The notes under the pieces: generated by a model
What the model saw: the letters and a program-made list of their open reading frames with translations, nothing else
Database searches by the model: none
Told to the model about the DNA's origin: nothing
Source of the DNA: Celeribacter naphthalenivorans
GTDB lineage: Bacteria > Pseudomonadota > Alphaproteobacteria > Rhodobacterales > Rhodobacteraceae
DNA: 64,000 nucleotides
Assembly (NCBI RefSeq): GCF_020524585.1
Contig: NZ_JAIVLK010000002.1
Coordinates: forward strand, 372,001-436,000
Direction of reading: 5' to 3'
Made by a program: the position numbers and the translations under genes
Shown here: piece after piece, positions 29,237 through 45,123 of the stretch
Layout of the letters: each line of letters begins with the position of its first letter
Position numbering within the stretch: the first letter of the stretch is position 1

Positions 29237-29689
29237 TTAGTCCGCGATTTCGATCCGCACAGAGGTCTCGCCCGCGTCGACCAGAGGCGCAAGAGAGCCA
29301 TCGAAAGCGCCGAGACGCACAAGGCCGTTCGATTTCTGGAAGGGTTTGTAAAAGATCGCAAGATTGCCCCAGGGCGCATAGAGCGTGATGTCGCCGGTCT
29401 CGGGTTTATAGGCCCGAGGCGCGTCGGTGGTGTCGAGTTTGCGTGGCAGGTCGGCGATCTTCTCAATGCCGTGGTAATCTGTGAGGTCTAGGTCGAGCGG
29501 CAGCAGGGCGGCGAAATCCCGACCGGCGGGGGTGTCGTCGAGCGTGGCGGTGAGAACCTCTGCGCCGAAGGTGAACTGGATTTTCGTCATTGGGCTGTCT
29601 TTCTGGGGTGTCGTCGCGGAAGTGTCCGCGAAAGCCGGAGCGGTCAGGGCAAGGCCCAGCAGCGCGGTGCGGAGGATGGGGGCGAACAT
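29237..29689 (-). CDS. Exported cyclophilin-like-fold protein
   Basis: 150 residues with a Sec signal peptide (LRTALLGLALTAPAFA). The mature part resembles the cyclophilin_like family: ATLDDTPAGRDFAALLPLDLDLTDYHG, then YAPWGNLAIFYKP and RLGAFDGSLAPL. This family is small and mostly uncharacterised; it is not a proven prolyl isomerase. It lies 60 bp downstream of the Tat-exported alcohol dehydrogenase on the same strand, so it may share its transcript and periplasmic setting. Confidence 0.78.
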   Translation of the reverse strand: MFAPILRTALLGLALTAPAFADTSATTPQKDSPMTKIQFTFGAEVLTATLDDTPAGRDFAALLPLDLDLTDYHGIEKIADLPRKLDTTDAPRAYKPETGDITLYAPWGNLAIFYKPFQKSNGLVRLGAFDGSLAPLVDAGETSVRIEIAD

Positions 29690-29749: not shown

Positions 29750-30952
29750 TCAGGCCGCGGTCATGTCGATGACATAGCGGTAGCGCGCCTGTTTGTTGAC
29801 GACCTTTTCACAGGCCGCGCCGATCTGATCCGGGGTGATCATCTCGTAAGACGCGGCCACGCCATGGTCGGCGGCAAAGTCGATCACGGCTTGGGTTTCC
29901 GCGATGCCCCCGGTCATGGAGCCCGCAAGGCTCTGGCGGTTGAAGGCCATCATCATGCCCTGAGCGCCCTGAACCTCGAAGAGCGCGCCGACATTGACCA
30001 GCGTTTTGTCGAGTTTCAGCATGTTGAGGAAGGGCTGCATGTCATAGGCCACGGGGACTGTGGAGATCATCAGATCAAAGCTCATCGCCTGTTGCGCAAG
30101 CGCCTCTTCGTCGGACCAGAGATAGGCTTCGGTGGCGCCAAAGGCCTTGGCATCGGCGAGTTTGTCCTCGGAGGTGGTAAAGACCACGACCTCGGCGCCT
30201 TTCGCAACGGCGAGTTTGACGGCGAGGTGGCCCAGACCGCCCATACCGATCACGCCGTACCGCTGACCCGGTTTCAGATCCCAGTGGTTGATCGGCGAAA
30301 AGGTGGTGATGCCCGCACAGAGGAGCGGCGCAAAGCCCGCAAGGTCCACCCCCGGCGGGATGCGCAGGGCGAACTCTTCTTTGACGACGATCTTCTTGGA
30401 ATAACCGCCATAGGTCACACCGCCGGAGATTTTATCCTCGGAGCCATAGGTGAAGGTCGTGCCGTTGAGACAGTTCTGTTCCCGGTCGGCCATGCAGTTG
30501 GCACAGTCTCCGCAGCTGTCGACCATGGTGCCGACACCGGCGAAATCTCCCTCGCGGAATTTGATGACATCTGCGCCCACGGCGACCACACGGCCGACCA
30601 TTTCGTGGCCCGGCACCAGCGGATAGACCGCAGGACCCCAGTCGCCTTTGTAGGTGTGAATGTCGGAGTGACAGATCGAGCTGTACATGATCTCGACCAC
30701 CACGTCTTTCGGCCCGGCGGCGCGGCGCGTGATGGTGTGGGGGGCAAAGGAGCCCTCGGTGTCGAAGGCGGCCCAGGACTGTACTTGGCTTTCCGCAAGC
30801 GCATTGGCGTCTTGCGCCTGAGCGGTCCCGACAAAACCGGTCGCAGCCAGAGGGGCGGCCACAGCGGCGGCGGCACTGGCGGTCAGAAAGCCACGACGGC
30901 TCTCGCCTTCACGGGTCAGAAATTCGGGGGAGGAGTTACAGGCGTCACACAT
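29750..30952 (-). CDS. Tat-exported zinc alcohol dehydrogenase
   Basis: 400-residue medium-chain dehydrogenase of the YahK/cinnamyl-alcohol type. Residues 18-40 form a twin-arginine signal (SRRGFLTASAAAAVAAP). The catalytic zinc region is SSICHSDIHTYKGDW with PGHEMVG, the structural zinc site is CGDCANCMADREQNC, and the NAD(P) fold is GMGGLGHLAVKLA. I chose the ATG at 30952, with AAGAGA upstream; the frame runs on to 31048. A periplasmic, NAD(P)-type enzyme is unusual, since the cofactor must be bound before export. The dyad operator at 31046-31070 lies 94 bp upstream. Confidence 0.88.
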   Translation of the reverse strand: MCDACNSSPEFLTREGESRRGFLTASAAAAVAAPLAATGFVGTAQAQDANALAESQVQSWAAFDTEGSFAPHTITRRAAGPKDVVVEIMYSSICHSDIHTYKGDWGPAVYPLVPGHEMVGRVVAVGADVIKFREGDFAGVGTMVDSCGDCANCMADREQNCLNGTTFTYGSEDKISGGVTYGGYSKKIVVKEEFALRIPPGVDLAGFAPLLCAGITTFSPINHWDLKPGQRYGVIGMGGLGHLAVKLAVAKGAEVVVFTTSEDKLADAKAFGATEAYLWSDEEALAQQAMSFDLMISTVPVAYDMQPFLNMLKLDKTLVNVGALFEVQGAQGMMMAFNRQSLAGSMTGGIAETQAVIDFAADHGVAASYEMITPDQIGAACEKVVNKQARYRYVIDMTAA

Positions 30953-31045
30953 GATCTCTTTGGCGTCCTTTTGTGGGAAGGGGGCAAACATATGCAGAGA
31001 GGATGACGCAAAACGGGGCGAGGATAATCGCCAATCCATGCAAGC

Positions 31046-31070
31046 CATTCATGAGAGGTCATCATGAATG
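31046..31070. promoter_or_regulatory. Dyad operator 1 (LysR-type), divergent adh/cupin promoter region
   Basis: CATTCATGA (31046-31054), 7-bp spacer, TCATGAATG (31062-31070): perfect arms. The centre reads TGA-N7-TCA, which is a T-N11-A LysR box. It sits between the divergent alcohol dehydrogenase and exported cupin genes. The same motif recurs at 33649 and 35624. Confidence 0.75.
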
Positions 31071-31151
31071 CGTTGAGAGAAGGGACCATGATCCGAGAGG
31101 GGGCGCGACCTAAGTTGTCTGCAACATGTATCAAACGAGAGAGGACTACCT

Positions 31152-31604
31152 ATGAAACTCGCACTTGGCCTGACGCTGGCCCTGACCCCCGCCGCACTCT
31201 TTGCTCAATCCGTCGAAATCTCCCACCATCACGAACGCCCCGGTCAGATCGGCAGCGACGAGACCTTTACCGGCACCGCCTATGTCGCACCGGTCTTCGC
31301 ACCCGAGATGCATGACGTGAGCGCCGGTGAAGTGACCTTTCTGCCGGGGGCGCGCTCCGCGTGGCACACGCATCCGGCAGGTCAGATGTTGGTGATCACC
31401 CACGGGACGGGCTGGACCCAAGAACGCGGGCAGGAGAAACAGATCATCACCGCAGGCGATGTGGTCTGGTGTCCGCCGGGGGTTGAGCATTGGCATGGTG
31501 CCACCGACAGCACCTCTGTGACGCATTACGCCATTCAGGCCAGCGTGGAAGGCTCCGCCGTGGAATGGGGCGAGAAAGTCACGGATGCCGAATATGGCGA
31601 GTAA
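31152..31604 (+). CDS. Exported cupin-domain protein
   Basis: 150 residues with a Sec signal (KLALGLTLALTPAALFAQ). The single cupin has metal-ligand motifs AWHTHPAGQ (two histidines and, in such cupins, a nearby glutamine) and HWHGA for the third histidine. It is a clear paralogue of the cytosolic cupin at 35204: both share FTGTA/FTGTV, HTHPAGQ, AGDVVW and YAIQ. Manganese or iron binding is likely. Its end overlaps the next gene by 20 bases, so the two are coupled. Confidence 0.85.
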   Translation: MKLALGLTLALTPAALFAQSVEISHHHERPGQIGSDETFTGTAYVAPVFAPEMHDVSAGEVTFLPGARSAWHTHPAGQMLVITHGTGWTQERGQEKQIITAGDVVWCPPGVEHWHGATDSTSVTHYAIQASVEGSAVEWGEKVTDAEYGE

Positions 31605-32631
31605 GCTGAGGCCCGCGCTGGGGCTGGCCTTGGTGTTCAGCTCTGGCGTGACAGCTGCGGCAATGGCACAGGGGATGACGCCGGGGGAGGCCGTCTTGGA
31701 CGGTCTCGACTACCCGTGGGACATCGAGGCGCTGGGCGATGTGATCTATGTGACCGAGAAGGCGGGCAGTTTGGGTCTGTTCGACGGGGAGGGCTTTACG
31801 CGTTTGCCCGTCGAGACCTCTGTGCCGATCCTCAATCATCGTGGCGGGGGGCTTTTGGGCCTCGCGCTGCGTCCTGATTTTGCCGAGACCAACCGCGCGG
31901 TGCTCTATCATCACGCGGGGACACCGGAGGCGCGGTACAATCGGGTGATCGAGGTTGAGAGAGACGGGGAGCGCTGGCGTGAGACCCGTGTGCTCTTGGA
32001 CAATATCCCCGGCCATCCGCTTTACAACGGCGGGCGCGTGGCCTTTGGGCCGGACGGGATGCTTTATGTCACCACCGGTTGGGTCGAAAACCGCGCGCTG
32101 CCGCAGGATGTGGAGAGCCTTGCGGGCAAAATCCTGCGCCTGACGCCCGACGGCGCGGTGCCGGGGGACAATCCTTTTCCCGGCTCGCCTGTCTACTCCT
32201 TGGGGCATCGCAACCCGCAGGGGATCACTTGGGACGCGTCGGGACAGATGTTTGCCGCAGAGCACGGGCAATCCGGTCACGACGAGGTCAATCGCATCGT
32301 CGCGGGGGGCAATTACGGCTGGCCCGTGATCCAAGGCGATGAAACCCGTGAGGGGATGCTGGCGCCTTTTGCGCACTCCGGTCGTAGCACCTGGGCGCCT
32401 TCCGGGCTGACGTCTTCGGGGCAGGGGCTTTTGCTCGCTGGGCTTCGGGCAGGTGCTGTGCTTGGTCTCTCCGAGACGGGGGAGGTCACAGAGGCCTATG
32501 GGGCCTATGGCGCAGGCGAGCGTCTGCGCGATGTGCTGGTTGTGGGCGATGAGGTCTATGCCATCACCACCAATCGCTCGCCGCGCCGTGATGGTGCCTC
32601 GGAGGATCGGCTCGTGCGGCTCGCGCCATAA
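31585..32631 (+). CDS. Exported PQQ-type glucose/sorbosone dehydrogenase-like protein
   Basis: 348-residue beta-propeller of the GSDH/YliI (soluble aldose sugar dehydrogenase) family. Signal peptide at the N-terminus (PALGLALVFSSGVTAAAMAQ). Family marks are LDYPWDIEAL, NHRGGGLLGLALRPDF, GGRVAFGPDGMLYVTTG, SLGHRNPQG and NYGWPV. Oxidises sugars or polyols with PQQ in the periplasm by family knowledge; the substrate is unknown. The ATG at 31585 overlaps the cupin end; ATG 31594 is an alternative start. Confidence 0.87.
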   Translation: MPNMASKLRPALGLALVFSSGVTAAAMAQGMTPGEAVLDGLDYPWDIEALGDVIYVTEKAGSLGLFDGEGFTRLPVETSVPILNHRGGGLLGLALRPDFAETNRAVLYHHAGTPEARYNRVIEVERDGERWRETRVLLDNIPGHPLYNGGRVAFGPDGMLYVTTGWVENRALPQDVESLAGKILRLTPDGAVPGDNPFPGSPVYSLGHRNPQGITWDASGQMFAAEHGQSGHDEVNRIVAGGNYGWPVIQGDETREGMLAPFAHSGRSTWAPSGLTSSGQGLLLAGLRAGAVLGLSETGEVTEAYGAYGAGERLRDVLVVGDEVYAITTNRSPRRDGASEDRLVRLAP

Positions 32632-32705
32632 CGATCCCGTTATGAGCCACGCATAATCCGTCGACTTTATGAGTCTGAAACATATATCATGAGGGAACCC
32701 GTTAG

Positions 32706-33638
32706 ATGATCACCTCCCAACCCCCGGCTTCCCTCATGATACGCGAGAATATCAACGACCTCATCGCCTTTGCCGCCGTGGCCGAAGAGCGCAGCTTTAC
32801 CAAAGCGGCGGCCCGGCTCAACGTGTCGCAATCGGCGCTGAGCCATACCATCAAGGGGCTGGAAAAGCGCCTTGGCTTGCGGCTTTTGACCCGCACGACG
32901 CGCACGGTGGCGCCGACGCTGGAGGGCGAGGATCTTTTGGCCACCCTCAACCCCTGTTTCGAGAAGATCGAGAACCGGTTGCAGGCGCTCAACGATGCGC
33001 ATGACACGCCCACCGGCACCGTGCGGATCGTCGCCGTGGAATATGCCATCGAGAGCATTCTTTGGCCGAAACTCTCACCCGTGCTCAAGCAATATCCGTC
33101 GGTCAATGTCGAGTTCGTCATGGATTACGGCTATACCGATCTGGCCGCCTCGCAATGTGATGCGGGCGTGCGTTACGGCGATCAGGTCAGCGACGGCATG
33201 ATCGCGATGCGGATCGGGCCGGACGAGCGGATGATCTGTGTCGGCGCGCCGGAGTATTTCGAGGCGCTGGGCGCGCCGGAGGTGCCGCAGGATCTGGTGG
33301 ATCACCGCTGTATCAACCTGCGGCTTTCGACCCATGGCGCGCTTTATGCTTGGGAATTCGAGGATAAGGACGGGCAGGAGATCAACGTCAAGGTCAAGGG
33401 GCAGGCCTGTTTCAACACCGTCAACCCGGTGCTTCAGGCGGCGATTGACGGGCATGGGCTGGCGCTTGTGCCCGAACGTCTCGCGCAGCCGCATCTCGAG
33501 CGTGGCGCGCTCAAGATGTGCCTCGATGACTATTGCCCGTATTTCCCCGGATTTCACCTCTATTATCCCAGTCGCCAGCGGCCGTCCTCGGCCTTCACGG
33601 TGGTCTTGGAGGCGCTTCGGGAGCGGGGGGCATCGTAG
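32706..33638 (+). CDS. LysR-family transcriptional regulator
   Basis: 310 residues with an N-terminal winged helix-turn-helix (FAAVAEERSFTKAAARLNVSQSALSHTIKGLEKRLG) and a periplasmic-binding-like effector domain (about 100-300). GAGGGAA precedes the ATG at 32706; an in-frame ATG at 32736 would remove ten residues. It lies in the middle of the redox/detoxification set, and three dyads with T-N11-A cores flank its neighbours, so it is the likely regulator. Upstream of its own start is a half-site TCATGAGGG (32687-32695), possibly for autoregulation. Confidence 0.9.
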   Translation: MITSQPPASLMIRENINDLIAFAAVAEERSFTKAAARLNVSQSALSHTIKGLEKRLGLRLLTRTTRTVAPTLEGEDLLATLNPCFEKIENRLQALNDAHDTPTGTVRIVAVEYAIESILWPKLSPVLKQYPSVNVEFVMDYGYTDLAASQCDAGVRYGDQVSDGMIAMRIGPDERMICVGAPEYFEALGAPEVPQDLVDHRCINLRLSTHGALYAWEFEDKDGQEINVKVKGQACFNTVNPVLQAAIDGHGLALVPERLAQPHLERGALKMCLDDYCPYFPGFHLYYPSRQRPSSAFTVVLEALRERGAS

Positions 33639-33648
33639 GTTTGACTGG

Positions 33649-33673
33649 GATTGATGAAATCGGTTCATGAGTG
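33649..33673. promoter_or_regulatory. Dyad operator 2 (LysR-type), upstream of the CMD operon
   Basis: GATTGATGA (33649-33657), 7-bp spacer, TCATGAGTG (33665-33673). The right arm matches the other copies exactly; the left arm matches at 7 of 9 positions. The TGA-N7-TCA core is intact. It lies 71 bp before the carboxymuconolactone decarboxylase-like gene. Confidence 0.6.
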
Positions 33674-33743
33674 GGGTGATGCTGAGCGGCATTAACCGCG
33701 CCGCCCTGCGCCCCATATGTCTGGAAACACAACAGGAGTTCCC

Positions 33744-34517
33744 ATGACGTTTTCGAAAAAGACCCCGATTGCCGCTTCCGCCTTCGCTCTGGTGACCAGT
33801 GCCGCCCTCGCGCAGGATGTGCGCGACACCGTGCCCTCGTCGCTCGCCCAAGTTGCTCCGGCGCTTGAGGCCTACACCTCTGAGACCATCCTCGGTTCCG
33901 AGTGGGAAAGCGAGGCGATGTCCGTGCGCGACCGTGCGCTCGTGACCTTTGCTGCCCTGATGACGCGCCATGAGACCGAAAACCTCGCAAGTTATGTGAC
34001 GCTGGCGCTGGACGCTGGTGTGACGCCTGCGGAACTCTCCGAGACCATCACCCATCTGGCCTTCTACACCGGTCTTGGCAACGCCACCGCCGCCGCCGAA
34101 GTTGCGGCCCCCGTGTTCGAGGCCCGTGGCATCACGCCCGATAGCCTGCCCGGCGCGGAGGTTGAATTCCTGCCGCTGAACCAAGAGGCCGAGGACGCGC
34201 GCGAAGAGCTTGTCAGCGGCAATTTCAGCAATGTCAGCATCGGCGTGGTGGACAACACCCGCGACGTGCTGTTCCGCGATCTCTGGCTCCGTCCGGACCT
34301 CGCACCGCGTGACCGCAGCCTCGTTACTGTCGCCGCTCTCATCGCCGCCGGTCAGCCGGAACAGATGACATTCCACCTCAACCGTGCCATGGACAATGGT
34401 TTGACCCAAGAGGAAGCCGGGGCCATGCTGTCGCATCTCGCTTTCTATGCGGGCTGGCCGAAGGTCTTTTCGGCCCTGCCGGTGGCGAAAGCCGTGTTCG
34501 AGAGCCGCGCAGAGTAA
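33744..34517 (+). CDS. Exported double carboxymuconolactone-decarboxylase-domain protein
   Basis: 257 residues with a Sec signal (KKTPIAASAFALVTSAALAQ). Two CMD repeats follow: RALVTFAALMTRHETENLASY...HLAFYTGLGNA, and RSLVTVAALIAAGQPEQMTFH...HLAFYAGWPK. There is no CxxC as in AhpD, so a peroxidase role is unlikely. GGAG before the ATG at 33744. The reductase gene follows after 19 bp. Exported CMD proteins are uncharacterised; aromatic or lactone substrates are possible. Confidence 0.85.
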   Translation: MTFSKKTPIAASAFALVTSAALAQDVRDTVPSSLAQVAPALEAYTSETILGSEWESEAMSVRDRALVTFAALMTRHETENLASYVTLALDAGVTPAELSETITHLAFYTGLGNATAAAEVAAPVFEARGITPDSLPGAEVEFLPLNQEAEDAREELVSGNFSNVSIGVVDNTRDVLFRDLWLRPDLAPRDRSLVTVAALIAAGQPEQMTFHLNRAMDNGLTQEEAGAMLSHLAFYAGWPKVFSALPVAKAVFESRAE

Positions 34518-34536
34518 AGAACAGGGAGAGTTTGGC

Positions 34537-35175
34537 ATGAAAATCGGCATTCTGGGATCGGGTCTCATGGGCGGCAAACTGGGCCGCATCTGGGCCGAGG
34601 CGGGTCATGACGTGACCTTTTCCTACGCCAGGGATCATGCCAAGCTCGACCGGCTCGCAAACGCGGTTGGCGCCTCATCGGGCAGCGTGGCCGAGGCCGT
34701 CGAAGGTGCAGATGCGGTGCTTTTGGCGGTGCATTGGTCCCGCCGCGCCGATGTCTTGGAACAGGCGGGCGATCTGGCGGGCAAGGTTGTGCTGAACTGC
34801 TCTTTGCCTTTGAACGACAGCAACACCGCGCTGGTCGTTGGCACCACCTCCTCTGGCGCAGAAGAGCTTGCGAGGTTGCGGCCTCATGCCCGCTGGGTGT
34901 CCTGTTTCAACACCAACCCGTCGGAGAGCTTTTATCCGGTCTTTGCCCAAAAGGGGCAGGGACCAGCCCCGCAGGTCATGACCTATGGCGACGACAAGAG
35001 CGCCAAGGAGACTGCATTCGGGTTGATCCGCGACGTCGGGTTCGAGCCCTTGGACTGCGGCGGCCTGCACAACGCCCGCTTCATCGAACCCTTCGCCATG
35101 GCGACCGTGGAATTGGCCTATGTTCAACCCGGCGGCCCGGCGCTGACCTATCGTTTTGACAAATTGCGCGGCTGA
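34537..35175 (+). CDS. NADPH-binding reductase (F420-reductase-like)
   Basis: 212-residue Rossmann protein: [26 protein letters not shown] is a GxGxxG dinucleotide site followed by the family's NADP-type region. The rest resembles NADPH-dependent F420 reductase-like proteins, which in organisms without F420 act on unknown partners. No signal peptide. AGGGAGAG precedes the ATG. It sits between the CMD and cytosolic cupin genes, with 28 bp to the latter, so the three probably form an operon. Confidence 0.84.
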
Positions 35176-35203
35176 GCCCCGCGTTTCTGAAAGGAGTATC
35201 CCC

Positions 35204-35599
35204 ATGAAAATCATCCGTTCCGGCAGCAATCCCTCCATGCCTGGTCCCGAAGATTGGTTCACCGGCACCGTGCGTGTCGATCCGATGTTCCAAGCCGAAG
35301 ACCCGGGCCGCGTCGGTGGCTCGCATGTGACCTTCGAGCCGGGCGCGCGCACCGCATGGCACACCCACCCCGCAGGTCAGACCATCATCATCACCTTTGG
35401 CCGTGGTCGCGTTCAACGCGAAGGCGGCCCGGTCGAAGAGGTGAGCGCAGGCGATGTCGTCTGGTTCCCGGCCGGCGAGAAACATTGGCACGGGGCCGCG
35501 CCCGAGAATGCCATGAGCCACTATGCGATCCAAGAGACCGTGGATGGCTCCGCCGTGACCTGGATGGAGAAGGTCGCGGACGACGATTACAACGGCTGA
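35204..35599 (+). CDS. Cytosolic cupin, hydroxynitrile-lyase-like
   Basis: 131 residues, no signal peptide. The cupin metal site is AWHTHPAGQ and KHWHGAAP. Length and motifs ([43 protein letters not shown]) closely recall, from memory, the small manganese cupins described as (R)-selective hydroxynitrile lyases in acidobacteria. Whether this protein acts on cyanohydrins is unknown; many homologues are uncharacterised. Ribosome site AAAGGAG. Paralogue of the exported cupin at 31152. Confidence 0.85.
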
Positions 35600-35623
35600 T
35601 CTCTGATCTGAGCTCAATAGGGT

Positions 35624-35648
35624 CACTCATGATTTCTCGTCATGAGTG
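35624..35648. promoter_or_regulatory. Dyad operator 3 (LysR-type), upstream of the aldo/keto reductase
   Basis: CACTCATGA (35624-35632), 7-bp spacer, TCATGAGTG (35640-35648): perfect arms with the same TGA-N7-TCA core as operator 1. It lies 146 bp before the aldo/keto reductase start and 25 bp after the cupin stop. Confidence 0.75.
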
Positions 35649-35793
35649 GCATCTATTTTGCCCGGATTATCATAGCTCACGCTTTGACCTAGATTGAGCC
35701 AAGACAGAGGTCTCCTGCTTCGGTTGGGGGCCGCGCCGTTCCCTTGGCGCCTTTGTTGCGCAAACGGCGAAACGCAAAAGAAAGGAAGATCCA

Positions 35794-36654
35794 ATGATCC
35801 TTCAAGAGACATTCACTCTCTCCAATGGCGTCGAAGTTCCGAAACTCGGCCTCGGCACCTGGATGATCGACGATGACAAAGTGGCCGAGTCCGTAAAGGC
35901 CGCCGTCAAACTCGGCTACCGCCACATCGACACCGCGCAGGCCTATGGCAACGAACGCGGCGTCGGCGAAGGCCTGCGCGATTGCGGCGTGGCCCGCGAA
36001 GAGCTGTTCCTGCAAACCAAACTGGACGCAGGCATCAAGGATTATGAAGGCGCAAAAGCCGCCATCCAAGGCTCGCTCGATCTTTTGGGCGTCGACTACA
36101 TCGACCTGATGATCATTCACAGCCCGACGCCTTGGGACAAATTCGGTGGCGAAGACCGCTATTTCGAAGGCAACCTCGCCGCCTGGACCGCACTGGAAGA
36201 GGCCTACAAAGAGGGCAAAATCCGTGCGATCGGCGTGTCCAACCACGAGAAGGCCGATCTCGACAACCTGATCGACAACGGTACCGTGGCACCGATGGTG
36301 AACCAGATCCTCGCCCACATCACCAACACGCCTTTTGAGCTGATCGACTATTGCCAGAGCAAAAACATCCTAGTTGAAGCCTATTCCCCGATGGGCCACG
36401 GCGAGCTGATGAAAAACACCGAAGTGCAGGCCATGGCCGACACATACGGTGTGAGCCTGCCGCAGTTGGCGATCCGCTATTGCTTGCAACTGGATCTACT
36501 GCCGCTGCCGAAAACCGCGACGCCTGCCCACATGGAAAGCAACGCCGCCGTCGATTTCGAAATCTCCGCCGAGGACATGGATGCCCTCAAAGCCATGGAG
36601 AAAATCAAGGACTACGGCGACGCCAGCATGTTCCCGGTCTACAGCGGCGTGTGA
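35794..36654 (+). CDS. Aldo/keto reductase
   Basis: 286-residue NADPH-dependent (beta/alpha)8 reductase, of the 2,5-diketo-D-gluconate reductase/AKR5-like type. The tetrad is visible: D in HIDTAQAYGNE with its Y, K in FLQTKLD, and H in IIHSPTPW. The NADPH loop LPKTATPAHMESN is present. Reduces reactive aldehydes or ketones by family knowledge. AAGGAAG precedes the ATG. It follows a dyad operator and ends with a good terminator. Last chromosomal gene before the integrated element. Confidence 0.92.
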   Translation: MILQETFTLSNGVEVPKLGLGTWMIDDDKVAESVKAAVKLGYRHIDTAQAYGNERGVGEGLRDCGVAREELFLQTKLDAGIKDYEGAKAAIQGSLDLLGVDYIDLMIIHSPTPWDKFGGEDRYFEGNLAAWTALEEAYKEGKIRAIGVSNHEKADLDNLIDNGTVAPMVNQILAHITNTPFELIDYCQSKNILVEAYSPMGHGELMKNTEVQAMADTYGVSLPQLAIRYCLQLDLLPLPKTATPAHMESNAAVDFEISAEDMDALKAMEKIKDYGDASMFPVYSGV

Positions 36655-36972: not shown

Positions 36973-38178
36973 ATGGGCAAGAAACTGACGGCGACCTTCG
37001 TGCGCAACATTCAAACGCCGGGGAGCTATTCGGATATGGGCGGCATGGGGCTGCGTCTGCGGGTCAAACCGGATGGTCGGAAAAATTGGATTCAGCGCCT
37101 CACCGTGAGTGGAAAGGTCAGGGAAACCGGCCTTGGGTCTTTTCCGGTCGTGACCCTCGCCATGGCGCGCGACAAGGCGATTGAGAATAAGCGCATGGTG
37201 ATCGACGGGCTGGACCCGATCGAGGAACGCCGCAAGACGCGCGCCCGGCTGAGTTTCGCGGATGCCGTGGATCGCTACATTGACGTGAAGGTGCGGGAGT
37301 TGCGGAACGAGAAGCACCAAAAGCAATGGCGGTCTACGCTCGACACCTATGCCGTGCCGATCATTGGGGCGCTGCCGGTCGATAGCCTGACCGTGCATGA
37401 CGTGCTGCGGGTTCTTGAGCCGATCTGGACCACGAAAACCGAAACCGCGACCCGGTTGCGGCAACGGATGGAAGCGGTCCTGTCGTGGGCAACTGTGGCG
37501 GGGTTCCGCACCGATGCAAATCCGGCGATCTGGAAAGGCAATCTCTCGGAACTACTGCCCAAGCCCGCGAAAGTCGCGAGCAAGCGCCACCATGCGGCGG
37601 TGAAGGTCGCGGATATGCCGGAGTTCTGGCAAGCGCTGTCGGCGCGGGACGGGATGAGCGTCATGGCGCTGCGTTTCCTGTGCCTGACACTGGCGCGCTC
37701 GGGCGAGGTGCGCGGGATGGTCTGGAACGAGGTGGATTTGGACAACCGTCTGTGGGTCATTCCGGCAGAGCGGATGAAAGCCGGGCGCGAACATCGTGTG
37801 CCGCTTCCCGATACGGCGGTGAGCCTACTCAAGGCCGTGCCCCGGGTGAAGGGCTGTGACCATGTGTTCTTTTCGACCCGCAACGGTCCACTCTCGGATA
37901 TGTCCCTGTCTGCGGTCATGCGGCGGATTGACGAGAAGGCGCAGGAAACCGGCGGTAAACGCTTCCTAGACCCGCGTTCCAACCGCCCCGCAGTCCCGCA
38001 CGGCCTGCGCTCCACCTTTCGAGTTTGGGCGGCAGAGAATGGCGTGGATCATATCCAAGCCGAATTGGCGTTGGCCCATACCGTGGGGAGTGAAGTGGAG
38101 CGGGCGTATCGGCGGACGGATATGGTGGAGCAAAGAAGAGCGTTGTTGGAGCGGTGGGCGGCGTTTGCGGGAGGGTAG
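36973..38178 (+). CDS. Tyrosine integrase (P4-like, DUF4102 N-terminus)
   Basis: 401-residue site-specific recombinase. The N-terminal DUF4102/arm-binding domain (about 1-90) has GMGLRLRVKPDGRKNW; a core-binding domain follows (about 92-180). The catalytic set is visible: R242 (ARSGEVRG), K269 (ERMKAGR), H343 and R346 (HGLR), H369 (LAHTVG) and Y379 (ERAYRR). It should recombine the 16-bp att cores at the tRNA-Ser gene. It is transcribed away from attL; unusually, it is at the end of the island far from the tRNA. Confidence 0.95.
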   Translation: MGKKLTATFVRNIQTPGSYSDMGGMGLRLRVKPDGRKNWIQRLTVSGKVRETGLGSFPVVTLAMARDKAIENKRMVIDGLDPIEERRKTRARLSFADAVDRYIDVKVRELRNEKHQKQWRSTLDTYAVPIIGALPVDSLTVHDVLRVLEPIWTTKTETATRLRQRMEAVLSWATVAGFRTDANPAIWKGNLSELLPKPAKVASKRHHAAVKVADMPEFWQALSARDGMSVMALRFLCLTLARSGEVRGMVWNEVDLDNRLWVIPAERMKAGREHRVPLPDTAVSLLKAVPRVKGCDHVFFSTRNGPLSDMSLSAVMRRIDEKAQETGGKRFLDPRSNRPAVPHGLRSTFRVWAAENGVDHIQAELALAHTVGSEVERAYRRTDMVEQRRALLERWAAFAGG

Positions 38179-45031: not shown

Positions 45032-45047
45032 TATGGCGGAGAGACAG
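45032..45047. repeat. attR core within the tRNA-Ser 3' end
   Basis: TATGGCGGAGAGACAG, identical to attL at 36786-36801. It overlaps the acceptor stem and CCA end of the tRNA, so insertion leaves the tRNA intact. Confidence 0.85.
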
Positions 45048-45123
45048 GGATTCGAACCCTGGGTCCCCGTGAAGGGACAACGGTTTTCGAGACCGCCCCG
45101 TTCGACCACTCCGGCACCTCTCC
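45034..45123 (-). tRNA. tRNA-Ser(CGA)
   Basis: 90 nt on the minus strand from GGAGAGGTGCCGG (5' end at 45123) to an encoded CCA at 45034. The acceptor stem GGAGAGG/CCTCTCC-type pairing, the T-loop GGTTCGAATCC, a long variable arm and the anticodon loop CTCGAAA (anticodon CGA, reads UCG) identify a class II serine tRNA. It is the integration target of the element to its left. Confidence 0.95.

Follow-up and report, generated by a model that had tools for sequence, protein, structure and literature searches.

A predicted LysR regulon on a composite dyad operator in Celeribacter naphthalenivorans, with a probable role in aldehyde and electrophile detoxification

What holds together a group of exported and cytoplasmic oxidoreductases, cupins and a carboxymuconolactone-decarboxylase (CMD)-family protein gathered around a lysR gene in Celeribacter naphthalenivorans? 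The genes lie within a 64,000-nucleotide stretch of contig NZ_JAIVLK010000002.1 (positions 372,001 to 436,000), referred to below as the window, to which coordinates without a contig name refer. An initial annotation, covering positions 29750 to 36654, had proposed a single LysR regulon acting through a dyad in three intergenic regions. Judged from sequence, the whole is best explained as a LysR activator regulon, built on a composite operator and likely to serve detoxification of reactive aldehydes or other electrophiles in both periplasm and cytoplasm. No description of this regulon was found in the open-licence PubMed Central literature and, as far as that search goes, it is new, of the known LysR-activator type.

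The dyad, CAYTCATGA-N7-TCATGARTG, was searched alongside controls (the pattern backwards, reversed arms, permuted arms and shuffled sequences). It was found in the window at all three positions named in the initial annotation, i.e. at 31046-31070 and 35624-35648 without mismatch and at 33649-33673 with two mismatches, and every copy has the expected TGA-N7-TCA centre and thus the T-N11-A of a LysR box. By chance, a mean of 0.13 matches is expected in the window at up to three mismatches, and none of 100 shuffles gave three or more. In the genome (4,358,615 bases, 29 contigs) the motif is rare: five sites with up to two mismatches, all falling in two gene-flanking regions, namely the three window sites and a tandem pair on contig C10 (57804-57828 and 57862-57886). 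The latter lies between a unit encoding a DUF2255 protein and a short-chain dehydrogenase (SDR) and a gene for a major-facilitator superfamily (MFS) exporter, a layout conserved in genome G016. Allowing three mismatches gave six sites (none with the backward pattern); the additional one (contig C8, 233523) was dropped, being located inside a catalase-peroxidase-like open reading frame (ORF; named by eye) and scoring -0.7 on a 72-position weight matrix, for which sites of relatives and those of the window itself served as training set. On this matrix the four window promoters reach 51 to 60 (59.8 and 53.7 for the two faces of the first operator, 51.0 for the third), and the best non-site position in the window 2.2.

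All three sites face genes of the cluster. Operator 1 (31046..31070, a perfect dyad with no strand assigned) lies between the divergent promoters of adh and cupA. It is overlapped by the adh ORF as listed, which more probably starts at 30952, directly in front of the Tat signal. Operator 2 (33649..33673, plus strand) precedes cmd, and operator 3 (35624..35648, plus strand, again a perfect dyad) precedes akr.

Conservation of these sites was assessed in 54 loci obtained by scanning species genomes with the LysR protein: 50 hold orthologs with 73 to 96% identity, in Celeribacter, Salipiger, Roseovarius, Rhodovulum and other genera; of the remaining four, three have more distant LysR genes, one from Pseudomonas (58%) and two from Stenotrophomonas (50% and 48%), and the last is a stray (29%). 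With the stray excluded, 76 sites with up to two mismatches were present in 41 of 53 loci, against none for twelve permuted-arm dyads. The dyad with spacer 7 occurred 14, 19, 43 and 54 times at 0, 1, 2 and 3 mismatches, respectively; spacers of 2 to 6 and 8 to 13 gave 0 to 2 matches each in all, and the reversed-arm control none, so that spacer 7 is the only one clearly enriched. The dyad is also kept at the corresponding promoters. The gap between lysR and cmd contains a site (up to four mismatches) in 45 of the 46 loci with that gene order (L088 has none), and the dyad is found upstream of cupA in 34 loci, akr in 25, adh in 8, a stand-apart f420-type reductase in 6 and lysR in 13. In a column alignment of 44 cmd promoters of relatives (L141, likely a repeat of L082, was dropped) the TGA and TCA columns are near-invariant. 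The same alignment bears on the left arm of operator 2, GATTGATGA, which the initial annotation had described as degenerate: the site indeed has two mismatches, but among the 44 relatives the fifth letter of this arm is G 26 times and C 17 times and, since both letters are common, the arm is not a product of decay.

Beyond the dyad (columns 0-24), the cmd promoters share TG (28-29), CATTAA (41-46) and CCA-N-AT (64-69). The composite operator is unusually clean, and the initial annotation had missed its second element, ATKA. Of 118 oriented sites, 97 have this element at offset 42, 17 nucleotides (nt) beyond the dyad, and the next most frequent offset accounts for 8 sites; the count is based on the nearest site with up to four mismatches per locus and gene, with 30 unlabelled sites set aside and possibly with loci of one species included twice. 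By promoter, it was found at cmd in 42/45, cupA in 25/34, adh in 8/8 and akr in 21/25 sites, with a weak -10-like box further on. In the window, operator 1 is flanked by ATKA on both faces (31026-31029, minus strand, on the adh side and 31088-31091, plus strand, on the cupA side), operator 2 is followed by ATKA at 33691-33694 and a -10-like CCATAT at 33713-33718, and operator 3 by ATKA at 35666-35669. A search of the genome for the dyad plus ATKA (up to two mismatches) gave six matches and none with the backward control: four perfect ones in the window cluster (operator 1 on both faces), one on C10 and one beside a LysR paralog on contig C4. Taking the last box as the -10 would place the centre of the dyad near -65 and ATKA near -33 of the predicted transcription start, where LysR regulators classically have their recognition and activation sites. 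The promoters thus have, as expected of LysR control, a further site downstream of the dyad whose spacing is fixed and which lies near the predicted -35. This rigid geometry provides a usable search pattern for this branch of LysR proteins.

The proposed regulator is encoded by lysR (32706..33638, plus strand). Its product, aligned with the orthologs, has the LysR-type architecture of an N-terminal HTH_1 (79.6 bits) and a C-terminal LysR_substrate domain (106.4 bits), both above cut-off. Among 148 genomes (up to 15 candidates scored per genome), LysR with at least 80% identity was found in seven, and the motif (up to two mismatches) occurred in all seven of these versus 7 of the 141 others (Fisher p 1.3e-8). 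Among 394 genomes of the family (up to five candidates per genome), nine had LysR with at least 76% identity, and a site with at most one mismatch was present in 5/9 versus 1/385 (p 9.7e-9). The recognition-helix letters are alike within this LysR branch, and more remote members have related sites. The Pseudomonas LysR (58%) has a one-mismatch dyad across its own start, directly after TATAAT, and no other cluster gene was found in its locus. Next to LysR genes at a greater distance (48 to 57%) there is often a weaker composite site (L118, 30.8; L121, 23.1; L120, 16.8; L114, 13.8; L113, 12.6), others, e.g. L122, L123, L129 and L131, scoring 0.6 or less. Based on these comparisons we strongly infer that the dyad is recognised by the LysR of 32706-33638. 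The idea of one regulon with operators at promoters around lysR has thus gained ground: the motif is rare genome-wide, clusters at these promoters, is kept in relatives and co-occurs with lysR, and distant LysR genes have related dyads. A motif frequent elsewhere in the genome, which the initial annotation had named as grounds for dismissing the idea, was not what the search showed.

The lysR gene has an upstream element of its own, recognised from the spacer-14 dyads of the relatives (7 matches at three mismatches, several of them directly before lysR). In the window it occupies 32652..32688 (plus strand) and consists of CATAATC, 10-11 nt and then ATGA-N7-ACATATA. The string ATGA-N8-CATNTR precedes lysR in 44 of 50 orthologs (truncated L109 omitted; 0.02 expected per mononucleotide-shuffled set), with a -10-like box upstream of it in 31 of the 44. 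The element contains T-N11-A and is read as the lysR promoter together with a putative autoregulatory LysR box, which would go with the negative autoregulation of LysR-type promoters; a simple consensus scan proposes an alternative -35/-10 at 32661-32690, inside the element, in keeping with a plain promoter.

The regulator is further marked by its cysteines. Residues 84, 151, 178, 202 and 272 are cysteine in 50, 51, 51, 51 and 51 of 51 orthologs, respectively, whereas among 19 relatives with 40 to 57% identity Cys 84, 151 and 272 occur in none, Cys 178 in one and Cys 202 in 18. This pattern suggests that cysteines 84, 151 and 272 were gained with the regulon and could sense electrophiles, an argument that the kinship of the orthologs weakens. 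A bolder and rather doubtful possibility is that of an undescribed LysR subfamily in which these three cysteines would sense electrophiles and one rigid composite operator would drive a two-compartment aldehyde shield, with the exported dehydrogenase, cupin and CMD protein outside, the reductases and second cupin inside and, in some species, a molybdenum aldehyde oxidase as well. The lineage-specific pattern makes thiol sensing by the LysR protein directly testable. The closest solved full-length LysR relative by sequence, among the 38 structure matches listed, is 3szp/3t1b (E 1.9e-25), which we take to be AphB of Vibrio; we know of no targets that AphB and this LysR have in common.

In the mechanism that these features suggest, a LysR dimer would bind TSATGA-N7-TCATGA about 65 bp before the transcription start, and the second dimer of the tetramer would contact ATKA, whose consensus is SATTATC or CATTAA, at -35, some 31 bp closer to the start. 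Binding of an inducer, or modification, would then allow LysR to help RNA polymerase at the weak -10 box. The lysR gene would probably be autoregulated through the related box near its own promoter, and perhaps also by read-through from cupA-gsdh. What the sequences show directly is the sites with their fixed geometry, their conservation and their co-occurrence with lysR; binding, activation, autoregulation, the inducer and sensing by the three cysteines are inferred. The predicted target units are (i) adh with the cyclophilin-like gene, (ii) cupA-gsdh, (iii) cmd-reductase-cupB, (iv) akr and (v) the C10 DUF2255/SDR unit and MFS exporter. The regulon is therefore larger than the initial annotation had it, through the C10 units and the cyclophilin-like gene located below its span.

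The products of adh, cupA, gsdh, cmd and the cyclophilin-like gene would be exported. The adh gene (29750..31048, minus strand) encodes a zinc alcohol/aldehyde dehydrogenase (PF08240, PF00107) with a Tat signal, and 7 of 9 examined homologs have an RRxFL-type motif; its best NCBIfam match is the aldehyde reductase Ahr (267 bits, cut-off 470). Downstream on the same strand, a cyclophilin-like protein (29237..29689; PF18050, 120 bits, cut-off 22.7) has a signal-peptide-like N-terminus. Signal-peptide-like N-termini were also noted by eye in the cupin CupA (31152..31604, plus strand; NF049940, 159.5 bits, cut-off 140), in the glucose/sorbosone-dehydrogenase-like product of gsdh (31585..32631, plus strand; PF07995, 204 bits) and in the two-domain CMD-family protein (33744..34517, plus strand; two stretches of PF02627), whose start codon was picked by a Shine-Dalgarno-like sequence. 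No signal peptide is evident in the F420_oxidored/NAD-binding reductase-like protein (34537..35175, plus strand; PF03807), the second cupin CupB (35204..35599, plus strand; NF049940, 193.6 bits, cut-off 140) and the aldo/keto reductase Akr (35794..36654, plus strand; PF00248, 164 bits), whose best match is DkgA (NF008598; 182 bits, cut-off 425). Both cupins exceed the equivalog cut-off of the (R)-mandelonitrile lyase family, to which they belong by score, the activity being predicted.

Relatives add further members. Dyads were found upstream of 10 of 14 iron-sulfur subunits of the (molybdenum) aldehyde-oxidase type, 7 of 10 RibD-C-type reductases and 3 of 4 cytochromes P460, and within 350 bp upstream of 32 of the 46 stretches matching the cyclophilin-like protein (tblastn, 57 loci); these counts admit up to four mismatches, hence some weak sites. 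The common job of the targets would most likely be detoxification of reactive aldehydes or other electrophiles, and this theme, taken alone, is somewhat more likely than not. It is proposed because of the Ahr-like and DkgA-like enzymes, the oxidase subunits behind operators (in Roseovarius with a subunit above the PaoA cut-off, 334 vs 322) and the parallels with AdhR and YqhC. The shared operator says that proteins of unclear role work jointly, and the presence of aldehyde enzymes in the set hints at their substrates; regulator, operator and targets thus become jointly testable for the exported CMD protein, the mandelonitrile-lyase-type cupins, the cyclophilin-like protein and DUF2255.

These parallels lie in regulators of other families. 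In Escherichia coli, as a passage of PMC5297802 describes, YqhC responds to glyoxal and furfural by raising YqhD together with an aldo/keto reductase, so that one activator drives both an aldehyde reductase and an aldo/keto reductase of the DkgA type, as proposed here. YqhC belongs to the AraC/XylS family, whereas the present system has a LysR protein, exported members and other genes, and its enzymes are similar in kind to the YqhD/DkgA-type set without being members of it, remaining below the Ahr and DkgA equivalog cut-offs. Likewise, a section of PMC4776306 relates that AdhR (NmlR) of Bacillus subtilis raises an alcohol dehydrogenase and a CMD-family protein (adhA-yraC) under methylglyoxal or formaldehyde. 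Regulator family, gene set and operator all differ from those of the window. AdhR is a MerR-family protein. Among LysR regulators, MexT of Pseudomonas is tied to aldehyde tolerance in an excerpt of PMC11144800. It controls the MexEF-OprN efflux pump and is absent among the 38 solved-structure matches listed for this LysR. The MexT operator differs from the present dyad. In promoter design the closest comparison is with BenM/CatM, LysR-type activators with recognition (RBS) and activation (ABS) binding sites and the operator ATAC-N7-GTAT. Both systems have a dyad of T-N11-A form whose inner arms are separated by N7, and a second site towards -35, and the putative autoregulation of lysR would be a further likeness; here, however, the core is TSATGA-N7-TCATGA with outer CAY/RTG, the ABS consists of no more than SATKA at a single fixed distance, and the targets are not a benzoate pathway.

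Several observations weigh against the proposed regulon and its theme. The two genome samples have members in common, and relatives cannot be counted as independent events. Four of the nine LysR-bearing genomes of the family sample have no site at one mismatch or less, and G372 has such a site without the LysR. In 5 of the 14 motif-bearing genomes (G019, G020, G036, G048 and G098) no regulon gene lies near the site (up to two mismatches), and the backward control matches 3 of 148 genomes; on both grounds, lone two-mismatch sites can be due to chance. ATKA accompanies only one of six f420-promoter sites. The Ahr and DkgA matches lie below curated cut-offs, the cupin family takes its name from an activity for which we know of no natural role, and the DUF2255 and cyclophilin-like proteins have no assigned function, all of which weakens any assignment of a substrate.

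An alternative purpose would be catabolism of an aromatic growth substrate in place of stress detoxification. The name CMD comes from protocatechuate breakdown and LysR regulators often control aromatic operons; yet the CMD protein falls short of the PcaC equivalog cut-off (98.3 vs 155.7 bits) and has the signal-peptide-like N-terminus, no gene for ring cleavage could be made out among the targets inspected, and the members include reductases, an aldehyde-oxidase subunit and an exporter, which makes this purpose improbable. Of the "reactive carbonyl or aromatic compound" put forward in the initial annotation, the carbonyl half stands up to the comparisons made here and the aromatic half finds little support, the additional members in relatives being iron-sulfur subunits of molybdenum aldehyde oxidases, further reductases and an exporter.

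The dyad might also be bound by another regulator, of the MarR, TetR or ArsR type or the LysR paralog on C4, with lysR merely residing in the cluster. The arm core TCATGA is itself palindromic, which would suit simple dimeric repressors, and the paralog has a related composite site. However, spacer 7 alone is enriched, a second element at a fixed place suits the tetramers that LysR proteins form, co-occurrence follows this LysR, and the LysR genes of Pseudomonas and Stenotrophomonas and the own paralog have related dyads without the same cluster. The paralog, the closest in the genome, is 41% identical, and in its site, AAATGATGA-N7-TCATCATTG, the outer arms are different. We regard binding by another protein as quite unlikely. 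That the repeats are RNA hairpins or terminators is very improbable, and this reading was rejected: the repeat at 35622-35650 does pass a terminator-like scan, but that scan finds 5 candidates versus 5.8 in shuffles, and the sites stand at promoter-like distance before genes, point in both directions where genes diverge, conserve their sequence and not pairing alone, and have the fixed second element.

Several further arrangements of the operator were observed. The paralog on C4 (L020, 3216-4405) and its composite site, which faces a Tat-signal alpha/beta-hydrolase-type protein, constitute a sister regulon. Tandem dyads, often 45-60 bp apart and apparently one per promoter, occur in divergent cyclophilin-cupA gaps (L076, L079, L089, L094, L100, L103, L108 and others). 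Two motif-bearing genomes without the LysR, G004 and G006, retain operators beside cluster fragments or remnants. In G006, of the same genus, two operators about 2 Mb apart (L132, 5884-6607; L133, 5963-6373) adjoin adh, cmd and lysR fragments, a broken cluster with relic operators; in G004 (L137) the operator has akr on one side and a partial match to the f420-type reductase on the other, and no LysR was found at E 1e-60. The lone sites of G019, G020, G036 and G048 (weight-matrix scores -2.4 to 2.8) look like chance and were rejected as operators, and that of G098, an unrelated, smaller genome, scores 16.9. Finally, a tyrosine integrase gene (36973-38178), with matches to Arm-DNA-bind_3 and Phage_integrase, begins some 320 bp beyond akr; ARAGORN found no tRNA near it, the only one being a tRNA-Ser at 45034-45123, and a mobile segment may border the cluster at this integrase.

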